Part shown: one piece after another, positions 15,916 to 25,857 of the stretch
How the letters are laid out: every line of letters starts with the position of its first letter
How positions within the stretch are numbered: the stretch's first letter is position 1
Assembly: GCA_002753135.1 (NCBI GenBank)
Contig: PDZV01000004.1
Location: forward strand, 62,001 to 126,000
Direction of reading: 5' to 3'
From: Magnetococcales bacterium WMHbinv6
Lineage (GTDB): Bacteria > Pseudomonadota > Magnetococcia > Magnetococcales > Magnetaquicoccaceae
DNA length: 64,000 bases
Notes under the pieces: generated by a model
Told to the model about the DNA's origin: nothing
Databases searched by the model: none
Seen by the model: the letters and a program-made list of their open reading frames with translations, nothing else
Position numbers and translations under genes: made by a program

Positions 15916-17529
15916 TCAGGCCGGTCCACACTGTCGCACGGCAGCGGAAACCCGGTTGACGAATTGTTGAAAATTATCCTTGAACTGACCGGCCAGCATC
16001 TGGGCCTTTTCGTCGTAGGCCAGGGGATTATTCCAGGTATCGCGTGGATTGAGGCGGGCGCGATCGACACCGGGAACGGTTGTCGGTACCTGCAGGCCGA
16101 ACACCGGATCTGCTTGATATTTGGTTTTATTCAAATCGTTGGCCAAAATGCGGTCGATGATGGCCCGTGTTTCACTGATCGGCATCCGTTCCCCTTCGCC
16201 ATACGGGCCGCCACTCCAACCGGTGTTGACCAGCCAACATTTGGCCTGCGTCTCCTGCAGACGCTCGCCCAGCATATTGGCATAATGGACCGGATCCAAA
16301 ACCATGAACGGGGCACCAAAACAGGCAGAAAAAGTGGCCTGCGGGGTGGTCAGACCCACTTCCGTACCGGCGAGCTTGGCGGTGTAGCCGGAAAGAAAAT
16401 GGTACATCGCCTGTTCATTGCTTAACTGGGCCACCGGCGGCAACACGCCAAAAGCATCGGCGGCCAACAGAATGACATGTCTGGGATGTTCACCCATGCT
16501 GTTGGCCTGAATGTTGGACAACGAACGCAACGGATAGGCCGCACGGGTATTTTCGGTAAATTGGCTGTCATACAGATCAACCCGGCGGCTGACCGGATCC
16601 ATCACCACATTTTCCAACACTGTACCGAAACGGCGCGTGCAGCCCCAAATTTCCGGCTCGGCATGGGCCGACAGATTGATCACTTTGGCATAGCAGCCAC
16701 CTTCAAAATTGAAAATGCCCTTATCCGACCAGCCGTGTTCATCATCACCAATCATGCGCCGTTCCGGGTCGGTGGACAGAGTGGTCTTGCCGGTGCCGGA
16801 TAAACCGAAAAAGATGGCGCAATCATTATCTGCCCCGATATTGGCACTGCAGTGCATTGGCAGTACCCCGCGCTGCGGCATCAAAAAATTCATGACGGTA
16901 AAAATTGATTTTTTGATTTCTCCGGCATAGCCGGTGCCACCGATCAAAATTTCCCGGCGGGCCGGATGAAAAATGATAAACACTTCAGAACGGGTGCCAT
17001 CCTCTTCGGGAATGGCTTTGAAACCAGGAACCACAATGACCGTATAATCCGGCTCCTGAATCGTATCATTGAAAGTGCGAGGATGGATGAACAGACTGCG
17101 GGCAAACATTGCCTGCCAGGCCCATTGGGTGATGACCCGGGCCCGTTGCTGAAAACGGGGATCGGCACCTGCACGGCACTCTTGCACAAACAGATCCCGT
17201 TCCTGCAAAAAGGCCATGACCCGACGGCGCAGTCGCTCATAATTTTCCGGGGTGAAAGGGCGGTTGGTTTTGCCCCAGGCAACCAGATCCCGGCTGGCAG
17301 GCTCTTCGACGATAAATTTATCGTTGGCCGAACGCCCGGTATAAATACCGGTGGCGACAACCAAGGCTCCCCCTTCTGCCAGGCGTCCTTCTTTGCGTTG
17401 AATGACCTGTTCGACCAGCTCCGATGCCGAATAGTCCAAATGGATATTGCCGACATTGACCAGGCCTTGTTCTGCCAAAGCCTGTCGAATGGTCTCCGAG
17501 CGCTGTTCGCGCACCACGGTTGCAATCAT
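15916..17529 (-). CDS. pckA: Phosphoenolpyruvate carboxykinase (ATP)
   Basis: Predicted 537 residues, the length of bacterial ATP-dependent PEPCK. The P-loop is GLSGTGKTTLS, followed by the kinase-2 metal site MIGDDEHGW, with the substrate motif TGYAGEIKKS. GGGAGGAAC precedes the ATG. It converts oxaloacetate + ATP to PEP + CO2, the entry to gluconeogenesis. In an organism running the reductive TCA cycle it would draw oxaloacetate towards sugars. It ends directly against the convergent HD-GYP gene. Confidence 0.97.
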   Translation of the reverse strand: MIATVVREQRSETIRQALAEQGLVNVGNIHLDYSASELVEQVIQRKEGRLAEGGALVVATGIYTGRSANDKFIVEEPASRDLVAWGKTNRPFTPENYERLRRRVMAFLQERDLFVQECRAGADPRFQQRARVITQWAWQAMFARSLFIHPRTFNDTIQEPDYTVIVVPGFKAIPEEDGTRSEVFIIFHPARREILIGGTGYAGEIKKSIFTVMNFLMPQRGVLPMHCSANIGADNDCAIFFGLSGTGKTTLSTDPERRMIGDDEHGWSDKGIFNFEGGCYAKVINLSAHAEPEIWGCTRRFGTVLENVVMDPVSRRVDLYDSQFTENTRAAYPLRSLSNIQANSMGEHPRHVILLAADAFGVLPPVAQLSNEQAMYHFLSGYTAKLAGTEVGLTTPQATFSACFGAPFMVLDPVHYANMLGERLQETQAKCWLVNTGWSGGPYGEGERMPISETRAIIDRILANDLNKTKYQADPVFGLQVPTTVPGVDRARLNPRDTWNNPLAYDEKAQMLAGQFKDNFQQFVNRVSAAVRQCGPA

Positions 17530-19032: not shown

Positions 19033-21591
19033 TTAAAGATGAAATTTATCCAGCAAAGTACGCAACTCAACACCAATTTGCGCGACCTGTTTTGCCCGTT
19101 GCCGCACGGTATCACTGACCCCCTGCACATCGACGATGGAGGTGCGCATCTCTTCCATGGCCCGGGCGATCTCTTGCGCCGAGTGTGAAGCATCACTGAC
19201 ATTGTTGCCGATGGTCACCGCCCCTTCGGAGACACCGGCCATTTGCATCGCCATGCCAGAGACTTCATCGGAGGCCTGGGCGACATGATGGGCTACCTCG
19301 GTGATTCCTTGGGAAATATGGGTCATGGTCTGCGAAATTTGTTCGATATTGTGCGCCGAGTTGCCAACCCGATCGGTGACGGCATCGGTCTCTTGTGAGG
19401 CCAGACGCACCACTCGGGTAATCTCTTCTATGGATTGGCTTTGTTCATCCACCGATCCCAGAATGCCATCGTTGGATTGGTTGATATGTTCCAAGCCGTT
19501 GGTCATGCCCCGAAAGGCAGCGACCACATCATCGGTCTTGAGACGAATTTGTTCCACCCATTGGGCGATCATTTGTGTGGCATTGGCGGTTTGCTGCGCC
19601 AAAGCTTTGACCTCGTTGGAAACCACCGCAAATCCTTTACCCATCTCCCCAGCCCGTGAGGCCTCAATGGCTGCATTCAGAGCCAGCATGCTGGTTTGAC
19701 CGGCAATGCGGTTGATGACATGCACCACATTACCGATCTCTTTGGCGGCGCTGTCCAATTTTTCCATAGCCGCCGAATTGCCGGTCGCCTGGCTGCTGAC
19801 CCGTTTTGACTCCTGACTGGCCGATTCACAGCGGGCACGCACGGCATGCAAGGCATTATTCATCTGTTCAATGGCTTGGGCCATGCTGGTCACATTGCCG
19901 CTGGTTCGTTGCGCGGCCTGGCGGACATGGGCCATGTTGGCATTGGCATCGCCTCCAGCCACCACCAGGCGGCGCAGACGTTCACTGCTCTCTTCTGCCG
20001 TGCTGGCGATGGTATTCATGTTCTGGTTCATGTGATCCACCGAACTGAATACCCCGCGTATGGCCTGATTCATATCCTGCATTTCTCCGGCAATGGCATC
20101 CATATTGCCGCTCATCTGCATGGTGCTGGCAGCAATCCGGTTGGCACCGGTACGCATTTTATCGGCCTCTTCGGACATATTGCTCGAAATGGTGGCCAGT
20201 TCGCTTGCTGATTGATTCAATTGGGCGGTTTGTCCTGAGAGTATTTCCACCATCTGGCGTAAATCGACTTTCATGTGGGCAAAACGGTCGGTCAACTCCT
20301 GAAACTCAACAAACAGAGTGCGTGTCGGTGCTTGATGCCGGAGATCCAGTTCGCTGATCCGCCGGGCCTCGGCCAGCAAAAAGGAAAACGATTGCATAAT
20401 GCTGCGAGCGATTCGCATGCTGATCAGCAGGACCAGCAGCAGGCCAAGGCCAGAAATCAGCAAGGTCTGCCACAATGTCTTATTGGCCTCTGCCAGAAAA
20501 TCTTCTTCGGGCACCACCACACCGATGGTCCAGCGCAGGGAGGGATCCATGGTCAGCGGTGCATAGTAGGAAAAATAGCGCTCTCCTTTCTCCTTGAAGG
20601 AAAAATAGCGTTCTGCATTGAGTTGCCAATTGGTTTCATTCCCTCTGCTGGCAGCTTCACCGAGCGCTTGACGGTAGGCGCTGACCACCACCGGATCGTT
20701 GACCTCTATCACACGGTTCAGTTGCAGAGATCCATCCCCGGCTTTGCGGACGACAGCGGCAAAATCGGTCATGGCCACCGTCTCTCCCAGCCCGTTGAAA
20801 ATAAACACTCGACCATTCGGGCTGATTTCCAGACGGGCCAAAAAATCGGAAATATCTTTCAAGACGATATCAATGCCAGCCACACCCAACACTTTGCCCT
20901 CCTGGCGGACCGGCATCGACACCGTAATGCCAACCTGGGTCAAATGTTGCCCTTTGAACACATCCAACCAGGTATAGACATTGGTCCAGTACAGATTATT
21001 CACCTCCAGGGCACCGGCATACCACGGTCGCAGACGGGGGTCATAGTTGAAATCATAAACGGACTCTTGTTTAACCAGATGGCCGCCTTCAGCATGTCCA
21101 TACCAGTGGGTTGCCAAATAGGGGGAGAGCAGGGCAGTGATCCGTTCTGGCGAGGTCTGACGGGCGGCCTCCTGCAAGGCGGCCCGGCTGGCGGCTGAAT
21201 CGTCCAGACGTTGTACCACCCGTGTGCGAATGGTTCCATCCCGTTCCCGTTTATTCAGCCAGTGATTACCCTGTTTATCGCCAAAATAGATCAAACTGAA
21301 TTGGGGGTAGAGGGTCAATTGGCGCAGCGTCAGTTGATTGAAGCGTTCCAGAAACTGTTTTTCATTTTCCGAAGCAAAAAGATGCGCATTCAGCTGGACG
21401 ATGGCAGCGGAAGGGTAGAGAAACTCTTTGATTTTTTCAACCGTTCGACGACCAATTTGCGTCAGGGTAAAATAGGCCGACTCTTCTGCGGCCCGCGAGG
21501 AAGAGTGATAATGCAGGGTCATGCTGAGCAGGGAGATGGTACCGACCATGGCAAAAAAAAGGGCCGGCAAAAACCGTTTCAAGCGGAACAT
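19033..21591 (-). CDS. Methyl-accepting chemotaxis protein with dCache sensor
   Basis: Predicted 852 residues from ATG 21591 (GAGAGGATG upstream). TM1 is near residues 5-26. A large periplasmic dCache-type domain follows ([32 protein letters not shown]), then TM2 around 378-398, HAMP, and a long helical signalling domain. The hairpin tip [20 protein letters not shown] is well conserved and binds CheA/CheW. dCache domains sense small ligands such as amino acids or organic acids. It has no neighbouring che genes, so it feeds a chemotaxis array encoded elsewhere. Confidence 0.92.
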
Positions 21592-21667
21592 ATCGCCACA
21601 TCCTCTCGAACAACACACCGATACGGAAATCCGCATGGCAAAGTATGCTTTTTTTGTCAGCTACGCC

Positions 21668-21843: not shown

Positions 21844-23934
21844 TCAGGATGCCCGATCGTCGGCGTATTGTTGCAAAAAGCCTAAAAACAACGGCTGAAT
21901 CCGACAAGGGACCGAAAAACGGGCTTGCGGACGGCTGCAATGGTGCGTTTCCAGATGGACACCAAAAGCGCCGAACGTATCCAACAGATCATGCACCAGC
22001 AGACCCAACGGCCAATGAATCACCACCCGTTCCTCCGAAGAGCGCAGCTCCTCTGCCGACAAATCCATATCAGCCAACAGTTGACGGATCTGGCTGATGG
22101 TCGGTTTCAGATGGCCCAAACGGGTGGCAAACAGATAGGGCAGATCCAGTTTGGTCAACCCTTCCGGCAAGGCCAGCTCCCGGTTGGCGATGGATTGCAG
22201 CAGCTGTTTGGTCTGCTGTTCCTGTTTATTGCGGCGGGCCAGTTGTTCACGGTGCAGAAAGGCACGTTCGGAAAACTGGATGGTCTGGGCCATGGCATCT
22301 TTGACCACCGGTTGGTCGGAGGTACTTTCACCGCGAATGAACAGAGGGTGGTTCAACAGGGCCACGACAAATGCCTGATTGGTTTGCAAACCATCGACTC
22401 GCAAGGTTTCAACGGCAGAGATCAAACGACGGCGGGCACCATCCCGATCTTTGCCGCGTGCCACAATTTGGATCACCATCGAATCATATTGTTTATTGGG
22501 CATGCGACCGGTTTGCCGATCGTCGCCACCATCCAGGCGATGATCCATGTAGACCGTCACATCACGCCCGGCGGGTAACTCCAGGGCATAGATCGGTTGC
22601 CCCGCCTCCGGGACGGTCACAATATCCACCCCCATGGTTTTTTTGAACGCCTCGCGTTCGGCAGCCGACAGAAATCGCTCAAAACAGATGCGTGCCTCCA
22701 TGGTGTGACCACCACGCGCCTCGGCTTCGGCGTCGAGCTGCTCTTGTGCTTTCAGGCGTTTGCCCTCGGCAATATCGAACTGTGTCTGAATAAACTGGAT
22801 GCCGCCTTGATGGCCGGAGACCGGATGTTCCACCTGAATGCGGGTGTTGACCTCAAGAAAATAAAATCTTTTTTCCAAAGGCAGATACATCATTTCAAAG
22901 GTGGCCAGACCTTCATAGGGATGACCGAGTTTTTCGGCACCCTTGCGGAAAAAAGCGGTGATGTTGTCGCGCAAAAACTGCACCTGATCCGGGGTGATGC
23001 CGATGGCAATCTCTTCGATGATTTTTTGCTTGCCCCGTTGCAAGGTACAATCGCGCATCGGACCAAAACGGATGGTTCCTTCTCGGTCGATCATCACCTG
23101 CATTTCGATGTGGCGATTGGAGACGACAAATTCATTGATGATGAAAGAGGGATGACGGGCAGAAAATTGTTCAAAGAGGGCGAGAAACTCCTCTTCCGCG
23201 ACCGAGGCATCGATTTCCAGTTGTCCTTTGCCACCACCGCCAAAACAATCCTTGAATAAAAAGCGTTGCACGGTGGTTTGATAACGACGGAAAAAAGCCC
23301 GCGCCTCCGCACGGGTTTTGACATCCCCCGAGCTGATGGGCAGCGGGATGGCGGTCTCCTGACAGAAGCGGTTGGCCTCCATTTTATTGCCCAGCAGTTC
23401 AATCCAGGCGGCAGAAGGGGCAAGAATCTTGAAATAGCGTCCCGCCTCCGCATTCCATTCCGGATCTTCCGAGTTGAAGCCGTAGCCGGGATGAATGGCC
23501 ACCTTTTCCGGGGCGATATCCATCGATTCGATCATTTCCCGCAGCCGACGAATGACCTGAATATCCTCCCGTGCGCTGCCTTTGTTGCGGCTGTCTTTAT
23601 AGGTCAGGACAGGGAGAACAATGTCACCATCATCCAGCAGATGGTCGAAATAGGGTAAATCCTCCTGTTCCCAGAGGAGAAAAACCTTTTTTCCCGCTTT
23701 GTGGGCCTCCTGGATCACCATGGAGGCGATGATACCCCGGTTGGCGATGATGATGTATTCGTAGGCATCGGGAGCATCCAGACGACACTCCGGACGGGTC
23801 AGTTCATCACTGCAGGCAGAAAGCAAAGGGGGTTCGTCTGCGTAGGGTTCAGGCGGGGGGAGCAATTTTTGAAAAAAACCATCGCGCTGTTCAGGAAGGT
23901 CAGACATCGCCGTATCATTATCCTCTGCTGTCAT
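21844..23934 (-). CDS. Biotin-carboxylase-like ATP-grasp enzyme with unusual ends
   Basis: Predicted 696 residues (ATG 23910 is an alternative start). After a 55-residue leader, the biotin carboxylase core follows: YIIIANRGIIA (59-70), the ATP-grasp glycine loop GGGGKG (232-237), KQK (302-304) and EVNTRIQVEHP (361-371). All usual catalytic residues appear kept, yet the sequence is well diverged from AccC or PycA. The last 170 residues are unlike a biotinyl domain and lack the MKM lysine motif, so a separate biotin carrier would be needed. Roles such as acyl-CoA, pyruvate or 2-oxoglutarate carboxylation are possible. It overlaps the upstream cyclic-nucleotide-binding gene by 4 bases. Confidence 0.7.
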   Translation of the reverse strand: MTAEDNDTAMSDLPEQRDGFFQKLLPPPEPYADEPPLLSACSDELTRPECRLDAPDAYEYIIIANRGIIASMVIQEAHKAGKKVFLLWEQEDLPYFDHLLDDGDIVLPVLTYKDSRNKGSAREDIQVIRRLREMIESMDIAPEKVAIHPGYGFNSEDPEWNAEAGRYFKILAPSAAWIELLGNKMEANRFCQETAIPLPISSGDVKTRAEARAFFRRYQTTVQRFLFKDCFGGGGKGQLEIDASVAEEEFLALFEQFSARHPSFIINEFVVSNRHIEMQVMIDREGTIRFGPMRDCTLQRGKQKIIEEIAIGITPDQVQFLRDNITAFFRKGAEKLGHPYEGLATFEMMYLPLEKRFYFLEVNTRIQVEHPVSGHQGGIQFIQTQFDIAEGKRLKAQEQLDAEAEARGGHTMEARICFERFLSAAEREAFKKTMGVDIVTVPEAGQPIYALELPAGRDVTVYMDHRLDGGDDRQTGRMPNKQYDSMVIQIVARGKDRDGARRRLISAVETLRVDGLQTNQAFVVALLNHPLFIRGESTSDQPVVKDAMAQTIQFSERAFLHREQLARRNKQEQQTKQLLQSIANRELALPEGLTKLDLPYLFATRLGHLKPTISQIRQLLADMDLSAEELRSSEERVVIHWPLGLLVHDLLDTFGAFGVHLETHHCSRPQARFSVPCRIQPLFLGFLQQYADDRAS

Positions 23935-24371
23935 TGGCGTTTGGTGTCAACCAAAGTCACGTTGGTGCGATCCAGATGGCCAATCAGAATATTGATCAGT
24001 TCGTCCTTGAATTGCAATTGGATGGCAAACTCCAGCTCATCCAGTGCAGTGCGGTCGATGGCAAAGCAAATGCTGTCTTCCATGGCGGTGACACTGGTTG
24101 TCCGGATCCGATTGGTCAGAAAAGCAATTTCACCAATCACCGAACCGGCGGGCAAGGTCGCCAATATTTCTCCGGGAACACCCTCCTTGCTGACTTGCAC
24201 CGAACCTTTGACGACGATATAGAGCGTGTTATCGACACTGCCTTCACGGATCAATATCTCCCCTTTTTTGAAAGGTACAAAAAAGGAGGCCGATTCCGCC
24301 AGCATGCGTTTATGCTCGATGGTGAACTTGGTAAAAAAGGGTATTTTTTCAAGTAATTTCAGAAACAGCAT
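23931..24371 (-). CDS. Stand-alone cyclic-nucleotide-binding domain protein
   Basis: Predicted 146 residues from ATG 24371, which has GAGGAAAA upstream; a TTG at 24401 is less likely. The single CNB fold has FVPFKKGEILIREGSVDNTLYIVVKGSVQV and the phosphate-binding-cassette region LPAGSVIGEIAFLTNRIRTTSV. Glutamate is present in GEIAF; the usual arginine may be supplied by RIRTTS. No DNA-binding helix-turn-helix follows, so it is not a Crp-type regulator. Its stop overlaps the start of the biotin-carboxylase-like gene (ATGA), so the two are probably made together and may interact. Confidence 0.8.
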   Translation of the reverse strand: MLFLKLLEKIPFFTKFTIEHKRMLAESASFFVPFKKGEILIREGSVDNTLYIVVKGSVQVSKEGVPGEILATLPAGSVIGEIAFLTNRIRTTSVTAMEDSICFAIDRTALDELEFAIQLQFKDELINILIGHLDRTNVTLVDTKRQ

Positions 24372-24621
24372 GGATTTTTCCTCATTGGTAAACCAGGTCA
24401 ATCCTTGGAATCAATTTTCTTTGTCGGCGAACTCTAGCCCGCTGTCACAAAAAAAGCAAGCGTAACCCATGACCGCACGATGCCGTTTCTTGCGACATCA
24501 TGAGGATTTTTTACTCCGTGGGTTGCATGGCGAGGGGTTTCTGACATACAATAAATAATTTCACGTAACTCATGGAAGTGCGGGTTGCGCCGGTTTACTT
24601 GTCAACAACAATGAGGCGTTC
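24372..24621. other. Divergent intergenic region with possible gap promoter
   Basis: 250 bases separate the minus-strand CNB gene and the plus-strand gap gene. TTGCAT (24523-24528) and TACAAT (24547-24552), 18 bases apart, could be a weak promoter for gap. No operator or RNA was recognised. Confidence 0.35.
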
Positions 24622-25857
24622 ATGAAACTGGGCATCAATGGCATGGGCCGGATCGGCAAATTGTCTCTCTGGTACCACTTGGCAAACAAGACGTTTGACG
24701 AAATTGTCATCAATGTAGGCCGTCCGGTTGGTAAAAGTTTGGAAGATTTGGCGCATGCGGTCGAGCATGACAGCACCTACGGGCGGTTGACGAATTTTTT
24801 GCATGGTTATCACGGCCAGCGGGTGATCGAAGAGTTGGATGAAGCCAGTGGCCGGATGGTGATCAACGGTACGCCGGTCCATTTTTTACGCAGCCACCGC
24901 AATCCCCGCGAGATTGGCTGGCGCCACCATGGTGTCCGTCTGGTGGTGGATTGCACGGGTGTTTTTGTCGATCCGACCGTGGCGGCTGATGCCGGTAACG
25001 GCTCCTTGCGCGGCCATCTGGATGCCGGTGCCGAAAAGGTGTTGCTCTCTGCGCCGTTCAAGATCAAAACCAGCGGTATCGCCATGCCGGATGATGCCAC
25101 CACGGTCGTGATGGGTATCAACGACGAAATGTACGTACCAAAGCAACACACTTTGCTGTCGGCAGCCTCTTGTACCACCACCTGTCTGGCCTTCATGATG
25201 AAGCCGATGCTGGACCATTTTGGTGCCGATCGTATTTTATCCGCATCGATGGTCACCGTGCATGCCTCCACCAGCAGTCAGGTGGTGCTGGATGCGTTGC
25301 CAAGTGCCAACGCTTCCGATTTGCGCAAAAATCGTAGTGTACTCAACAACCTGATTTTGACCACTACCGGTGCCGCCAAGGCACTGCGTCTGGTGTTGCC
25401 AGAGATGGCGGAGATCGGCATGATGGCCGAATCGGTCCGTGTTCCCACGGCCACCGGCTCCCTGATTATCCTGACCTTGAACCTGCAATCGGAAAGTCGG
25501 GATAATCCGATCAACCGCACCGACATCAACCGGGTTTACCAAGAGGCAGCAGAGGGTGCCTGTGCCGGTTATCTGGTCTACAGCGCTGCCCAGAATGTCT
25601 CTGCCGACATGATCGGCTTCCCGATGGCCGCCGCAATCATCGAAGGTTCAGAAACTCATACCCGCACGGCCTATACCCGGGTCAATCTGGATCGGGTGCC
25701 GCATCTGACGCAAGCCATGCGCGATGCCATTCCCTCTCATACCCTGGAGGTTCCCGTGACCCAGGCGGTCACCTACGGCTGGTATGATAACGAATTGGGC
25801 AGCTATACCAATTTGTTGGGTAAATTGACACGCCATGTTGCCGATAAGCTTTTGTGA
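24622..25857 (+). CDS. gap: Glyceraldehyde-3-phosphate dehydrogenase, divergent
   Basis: Predicted 411 residues, longer than the usual 335. The Rossmann motif is GINGMGRIGK, the catalytic cysteine lies in SAASCTTTCLA, the partner histidine in VTVHASTSSQ, and the end YDNELGSYTNLLG is typical. The residue after the second strand, normally an Asp that selects NAD, is Val (EIVINVG), so NADP use or dual use is possible. It interconverts glyceraldehyde 3-phosphate and 1,3-bisphosphoglycerate; with pckA nearby, a gluconeogenic role is likely. GAGGCG precedes the ATG. tolB follows after 11 bases. Confidence 0.88.
   Translation: MKLGINGMGRIGKLSLWYHLANKTFDEIVINVGRPVGKSLEDLAHAVEHDSTYGRLTNFLHGYHGQRVIEELDEASGRMVINGTPVHFLRSHRNPREIGWRHHGVRLVVDCTGVFVDPTVAADAGNGSLRGHLDAGAEKVLLSAPFKIKTSGIAMPDDATTVVMGINDEMYVPKQHTLLSAASCTTTCLAFMMKPMLDHFGADRILSASMVTVHASTSSQVVLDALPSANASDLRKNRSVLNNLILTTTGAAKALRLVLPEMAEIGMMAESVRVPTATGSLIILTLNLQSESRDNPINRTDINRVYQEAAEGACAGYLVYSAAQNVSADMIGFPMAAAIIEGSETHTRTAYTRVNLDRVPHLTQAMRDAIPSHTLEVPVTQAVTYGWYDNELGSYTNLLGKLTRHVADKLL

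Follow-up and report, generated by a model that had tools for sequence, protein, structure and literature searches.

A divergent stand-alone biotin carboxylase of Ca. Magnetaquicoccus, its candidate partner OadA and a neighbouring cyclic-nucleotide-binding protein

Introduction

Biotin carboxylases require a biotinyl protein and a carboxyltransferase. Single-chain pyruvate carboxylases and acyl-CoA carboxylase alpha subunits carry the BCCP domain, with its AMKM motif, in the same chain, and AccC can in general act on free biotin and on foreign BCCPs. In a working oxaloacetate decarboxylase Na+ pump, OadB decarboxylates carboxybiotin. In the Salmonella pump, either of the substitutions D203A and S382A abolishes Na+ binding and leaves oxaloacetate decarboxylation severely inhibited (PMC7274780). 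The PycA/PycB pyruvate carboxylases, such as that of Methylobacillus flagellatus (5ks8), combine a separate, biotin-free biotin carboxylase with a carboxyltransferase-BCCP subunit of about 600 residues; the bacterial PycA subunit, of about 471 residues, ends in a short C-terminal helix, hydrophobic and rich in Ala, which docks in the BT-like barrel (PMC5059739). A stand-alone nucleotide receptor is also known to act on such an enzyme: the c-di-AMP receptor DarB activates the pyruvate carboxylase of B. subtilis (PMC8822347). The cyclic-nucleotide-binding (CNB) domains of PKG and PKA, and those of bacterial CNB effectors such as the protein acetyltransferase Pat and PycTIR, share a common cNMP-binding fold with a Glu and an Arg in the cassette.

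The window analysed here is a stretch of 64,000 nucleotides from a Magnetococcales genome (G000, contig C11; GCA_002753135.1, PDZV01000004.1, positions 62,001 to 126,000 of the forward strand), whose relatives in the same genus include Ca. Magnetaquicoccus inordinatus UR-1. It encodes a biotin-carboxylase-like protein, denoted BC*, directly downstream of a small CNB protein. We describe both genes, and propose that BC* may work in trans with OadA, which is encoded elsewhere in the genome.

Results and Discussion

Architecture of BC*

The features referred to below are as follows.

21844-23934, minus strand: BC*, a divergent stand-alone biotin carboxylase; open reading frame of 696 residues with biotin carboxylase domains (Pfam/NCBIfam)
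22750-23379, minus strand: ATP-grasp domain of BC*, residues 186-395 (Pfam PF02786; motif alignment)
22324-22539, minus strand: Biotin_carb_C part of BC*, residues 466-537 (domain match), with an insertion before it that AccC lacks
21856-22314, minus strand: C-terminal domain of BC*, residues 541-693 (AF2 model; no known fold matched)
23764-23934, minus strand: N-terminal extension of BC*, residues 1-57, poorly conserved in the alignment (pLDDT 30-40)
23931-24371, minus strand: stand-alone CNB protein, 146 residues from the conserved ATG (PF00027, 2.1e-19), with orthologues in G002, G003, G004 and G006
24090-24134, minus strand: phosphate-binding cassette of the CNB protein (GEIAFLTNRIRTTSV), with Glu and Arg invariant across the aligned orthologues
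L104:8663-9925 (G000, contig C27): oadB

BC* matches the Pfam families CPSase_L_D2 (2.3e-23), Biotin_carb_C (6.8e-13) and Biotin_carb_N (4.4e-6). A conserved internal ATG at 23907 (MSDL...), which gives a protein of 687 residues, is favoured by the relatives. The ATP-grasp motifs are present (GGGGKGQ loop, NRHIEMQ, QRGKQKIIEE, ATFE and EVNTRIQVEH), and when BC* is aligned with the AccC of the same genome and with the E. coli biotin carboxylase, the elements GNK, FKDCFGGGGKG, NRHIE, QRGKQKIIEE, ATFE, EVNTRIQVEH and EARI all fall into register. The catalytic Lys, His, Glu and Arg motifs that serve ATP, bicarbonate and biotin are kept in this alignment, and dN/dS is 0.04-0.06 in a comparison of three species, which indicates strong purifying selection. 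BC* is predicted to be enzymatically active. The idea of a degenerate biotin carboxylase was dropped in view of the intact motifs and the low dN/dS.

The protein resembles AccC in its core and catalytic motifs, with about 29% identity over the core, but differs from it in its insertions, its N- and C-terminal extensions and its lack of linkage to accB. In contrast to single-chain pyruvate carboxylases and acyl-CoA carboxylase alpha subunits, it has no BCCP domain in the same chain: no biotinyl domain was found in BC* with Pfam, where a Biotin_lipoyl match was sought. Residues 540-696 also have no significant Pfam family match. The initial annotation, made from the sequence of the window, had described a carboxylase with its catalytic core, unrecognised terminal regions and no biotinyl motif, and the alignment and domain searches bear out each of these points, neither flank having a significant family match.

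The full-length AF2 model, built on a seven-row alignment, has a poor core (pLDDT 50.7), and the C-terminal domain was therefore modelled separately. Modelled alone, the C-terminal ~155 residues give a confident model (mean pLDDT 83), in which a charged helix of 43 residues is joined to a small alpha/beta domain. The model has no match at E<=0.001 among PDB and BFVD structures, and a profile search of PDB sequences together with a plasmid tblastn gave nothing convincing. In sequence this domain is less conserved than the core (41-59%, against 65-75% for the full-length protein, in the deeper relatives). The PycA proteins of G018, G020 and G026 have AAALAAAI-like helices at their C-termini, whereas in BC* the long charged helix leads on to another domain; BC* is therefore not classed as a PycA, although it may work like one. 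It also differs from PycA in that the 155-residue domain is extra and the gene does not lie beside that of its presumed partner.

The CNB protein and its linkage to BC*

The conserved start of the CNB gene is an ATG at 24371 (MLFLKLL...), which coincides with the end coordinate given initially; the open reading frame can begin at a TTG at 24401. The sole Pfam match is cNMP_binding, and no HTH or kinase domain was found, in agreement with the initial description of a stand-alone CNB protein free of DNA-binding and kinase domains. Its relatives in the PDB are the CNB domains of PKG and PKA; unlike these, Pat and PycTIR, it has no fused effector and is a separate protein. Its dN/dS is 0.04-0.09 in the three species compared, again a sign of strong purifying selection.

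The four-base overlap between the two genes that was also reported initially, with the sequence ATGA, is present in the window solely when BC* is read from its first ATG; it is not constant among the relatives, which favour the inner ATG. In G006 the start of BC* lies ~19 nt beyond the CNB stop; the genes of G004 and G002 abut or share a few bases. The coupling stays tight among these relatives, and the exact overlap varies.

Co-occurrence across genomes, suggested at the outset as a check, was found: a CNB orthologue lies directly upstream of BC* in five of the six testable genomes of the genus (G000, G002, G003, G004 and G006), G005 being left out of the count because its contig stops inside BC*. 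In the remaining genome, G001 (99% complete), no CNB gene is present in the 700 bases upstream of BC* and no close relative occurs genome-wide. The upstream region of G001 (L041, 12500-13167) holds no clear gene, and its sequence looks repeat-like. Since the pair is found on each of the two major branches of the genus tree, the arrangement seems to go back to the ancestor of the genus, G001 having lost it. G001 keeps BC* without the CNB gene, so the CNB protein is not an obligatory subunit; it is a conserved yet dispensable neighbour of BC*. The candidate role of an essential subunit was rejected on this absence.

CNB matches number 3-28 per genome in all genomes of the order, and stand-alone CNB proteins are thus ordinary there. 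The short family has expanded order-wide, so that finding a member next to an enzyme says less than it might seem to. Members of the short family sometimes stand in tandem, as at G008:C33:36207-37168.

It is nearly an even bet that the CNB protein is a mere operon neighbour with a separate target, linked to BC* by transcription only. The persistence of BC* without CNB in G001 and the abundance of short CNB proteins across the order fit such an arrangement, while the adjacency in both main branches, the short or overlapping junction and the similar constraint on the two genes speak against it. The conserved junction, the intact cassette and the presence of six class III cyclase-domain proteins in G000 favour regulation. 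Action of the CNB protein on a BC*-OadA enzyme, as suggested by the gene coupling, stays clearly short of even odds. The direct control of the carboxylase by a cyclic nucleotide that was initially put forward is not supported, and both G001 and the expansion of the short CNB family weaken it.

Two central carbon genes lie near BC*, namely pckA (15916-17529) and a GAPDH gene (24622-25857); this proximity is suggestive only as a functional hint. The GAPDH gene is divergent from the CNB gene and encodes 411 residues, ~80 over the usual length, and its product scores 340.5 bits, just under the NCBIfam GAPDH-I cutoff of 367.2. On the other side, a methyl-accepting chemotaxis protein gene (19033-21636 in the window) is located between BC* and an HU/IHF-like gene in G000, G004 and G006; it is not found there in G001, G002, G003 and G005.

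Distribution and phylogeny of BC*

Orthologues of BC*, 65-89% identical, are present in all seven Ca. Magnetaquicoccus genomes and absent from the 41 other Magnetococcia genomes searched. None was found outside the genus among 398 sampled Pseudomonadota genomes, in each of which the two best candidates were scored; other phyla were covered by an exact-peptide scan, which picks up close relatives only. No relative was found on viral contigs, and tblastn of BC* against plasmids and phages returned just ordinary AccC, pyruvate carboxylase and urea-amidolyase biotin carboxylase domains (25-32%).

In a tree of the biotin carboxylase cores of the order, BC* forms one clade outside AccC, PCC-alpha, PycA and single-chain pyruvate carboxylase, on a very long branch; its placement is not to be relied on. 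BC* does not group with AccC, and the AccC of G000 is a different gene that adjoins accB. Recent duplication of AccC, PCC or PycA was ruled out as the origin of BC* by this tree.

OadA as the candidate partner

The biotin enzymes of G000 are AccB-AccC, PCC, and OadA followed by OadB. OadA (contig C27) has 617 residues and comprises a carboxyltransferase and a biotinyl domain with the motif EAMKME; the carboxyltransferase motifs and the biotin site are kept, and the protein is similar over its full length to OadA and PycB structures. It aligns with chain C of 5ks8 over nearly its full length but, unlike PycB, descends from OadA, being 65-69% identical to Magnetococcales OadA and 48% to PycB. 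OadA, like BC*, is present in all seven genomes of the genus. The two genes are not neighbours in G000, where BC* lies on C11, and no PYC_OADA gene occurs in the BC* neighbourhoods fetched.

The 99%-complete genome G001 has no PCC. There a BC* query finds BC* and AccC alone; AccB and OadA match as biotinyl/lipoyl proteins, together with a lipoyl E2 whose motif is DKA, and the carboxyltransferases are AccA/AccD and OadA. Since AccC adjoins AccB in the genus and nothing else is left unmatched in G001, BC* and OadA would form a pair. The same elimination pattern is seen in G002 and G005, which are less complete. Searches with PF00364 and PF01039 found no extra biotin protein. Judged from sequence, OadA is the only unmatched biotinyl/carboxyltransferase protein in those genomes of the genus that have no PCC. 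The search for an unpaired BCCP or carboxyltransferase, which had been recommended with the initial annotation, has thus yielded a candidate elsewhere in the genome, and OadA is where the missing function could be. The pairing suggested by elimination and co-variation comes close to an even chance.

AccC could charge OadA, however, and BC* could serve AccB. In the latter case acetyl-CoA carboxylase would have BC* as an additional biotin carboxylase, maybe an isoform for other conditions, with OadA and OadB unrelated to it. The nearest solved structures to BC* by sequence are AccC-type biotin carboxylases, the genus genomes contain AccB and AccAD, and the broad acceptance of free biotin and foreign BCCPs by AccC counts in its favour; but the canonical AccC already occupies the position next to accB, BC* stands apart in the tree on its very long branch and is no AccC duplicate, AccC has no counterpart of the BC* C-terminal domain, and OadA would be left roleless with a defective OadB. 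We consider this unlikely. It is equally doubtful that BC* is active with an unrecognised partner or substrate (a non-canonical biotinyl protein or a small substrate), the CNB protein being its regulator or an operon passenger. That the C-terminal domain matches no fold, that the branch is very long and that no dedicated carboxyltransferase or BCCP is found among the neighbours of BC* would all agree with such a partner, whereas the retention of every residue of bicarbonate and biotin chemistry, and the outcome of the two domain searches above, would not.

Loss of the Na+ ligands in OadB

The oadA-oadB genes of the genus lie downstream of hisG, as in other Magnetococcales. In contrast to the Na+ pump, all seven OadB proteins of the genus have lost both ligands of the first Na+ site, Asp203 being replaced by N, S or Y and Ser382 by A. 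Asp203 is kept in 18 of 18 other Magnetococcia OadB-family sequences that cover the site, and Ser382 in all but one of the non-genus OadB sequences that cover it, the exception being G040 (Ala). Glu40 and Asn412 are kept in the genus OadB. With a dN/dS of 0.05-0.08, the protein is under purifying selection and therefore still does something. We infer that it is inactive as a Na+ pump, but the natural changes at Asp203 and Ser382 may have been compensated. An ordinary pump-subunit role for OadA in the genus was dropped in view of the lost OadB ligands.

A change of this kind is predicted if BC* works with OadA, because an active OadB together with BC* would burn ATP futilely. BC* and the altered OadB both go back to a single lineage, and their association therefore counts as one event and not as many. 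It is very improbable that OadA-OadB is still a decarboxylase, uncoupled or using another ion, which BC* drives in reverse to give an ATP-driven ion pump or a bypass: OadB is indeed constrained, adjoins oadA and keeps Glu40 and Asn412, but both first-site ligands are gone in every genus genome, and in the Salmonella pump an equivalent substitution at either position is enough to prevent Na+ binding and to inhibit decarboxylation severely (PMC7274780).

Anaplerosis in the lineage

No recognisable pyruvate carboxylase was found in the genus that carries BC*. In the sister genus, g2, most genomes have a single-chain pyruvate carboxylase and none has OadB; PycA adjoins PycB in G018, G020 and G026, and several other families have OadA with an intact OadB. 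PEP carboxylase is absent from five of the seven genomes of the BC* genus, including G000, and present in G001 and G002. The occurrence of PEP carboxylase is patchy (G001:C97, G002:C125 and one other genome of 41 searched).

In the reductive TCA cycle, carboxylation of pyruvate to oxaloacetate would be useful. The tie to this cycle raised in the initial annotation agrees with the rTCA autotrophy reported for the genus (PMC6783814), although a specific link of the cycle to the CNB and BC* genes was not found.

Proposed mechanism

We propose that BC* is an ATP-dependent biotin carboxylase whose substrate, supplied in trans, is OadA's biotinyl domain. BC* would carboxylate the biotin of OadA using ATP and bicarbonate, and the carboxyltransferase domain of OadA would form oxaloacetate by handing this carboxyl group on to pyruvate. 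In this way, what is left of an oxaloacetate-decarboxylase Na+ pump would have become a pyruvate carboxylase. Loss of the Na+ ligands would remove the futile cycle and leave OadB as a membrane anchor or in another role. The CNB protein, co-translated with BC*, would act as a receptor for a cyclic nucleotide and tune the carboxylase, perhaps via the C-terminal domain of BC*. A trans pyruvate carboxylase of BC* and OadA, with the CNB protein as its probable regulator, is the best explanation of the data as a whole, and we give it a probability of about 0.45. The separate locations of BC* and oadA, the absence of a PycA-type Ala-rich helix from BC*, the lack of CNB in G001 and the presence of PEP carboxylase in G001 and G002 count against it. 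A fuller history, in which OadA was captured by a biotin carboxylase of a new subfamily that had arrived by horizontal transfer, OadB lost its Na+ site and the CNB protein became a messenger-responsive regulator, is unlikely as a whole.

The logic proposed for the CNB protein is that of DarB, by analogy: a stand-alone receptor for a nucleotide messenger acting on an anaplerotic carboxylase. The messenger differs, and regulation here would be a supposition from gene coupling. The receptor folds differ as well, CBS in DarB and CNB in the protein described here. Overall, what was initially observed at this locus is confirmed, and its interpretation is partly supported.

The link to OadA and OadB raises the interest of the locus, whereas the CNB protein, being common and dispensable, lowers it. 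If the proposal is true, a Na+-pumping decarboxylase would have been turned into an ATP-driven carboxylase by the gain of one subunit and the disabling of another, and a classical cNMP receptor would control anaplerotic carboxylation. Even without the regulation, the occurrence of a genus-specific biotin carboxylase alongside the loss of both Na+ ligands of OadB is a precise, testable case of evolutionary coupling.
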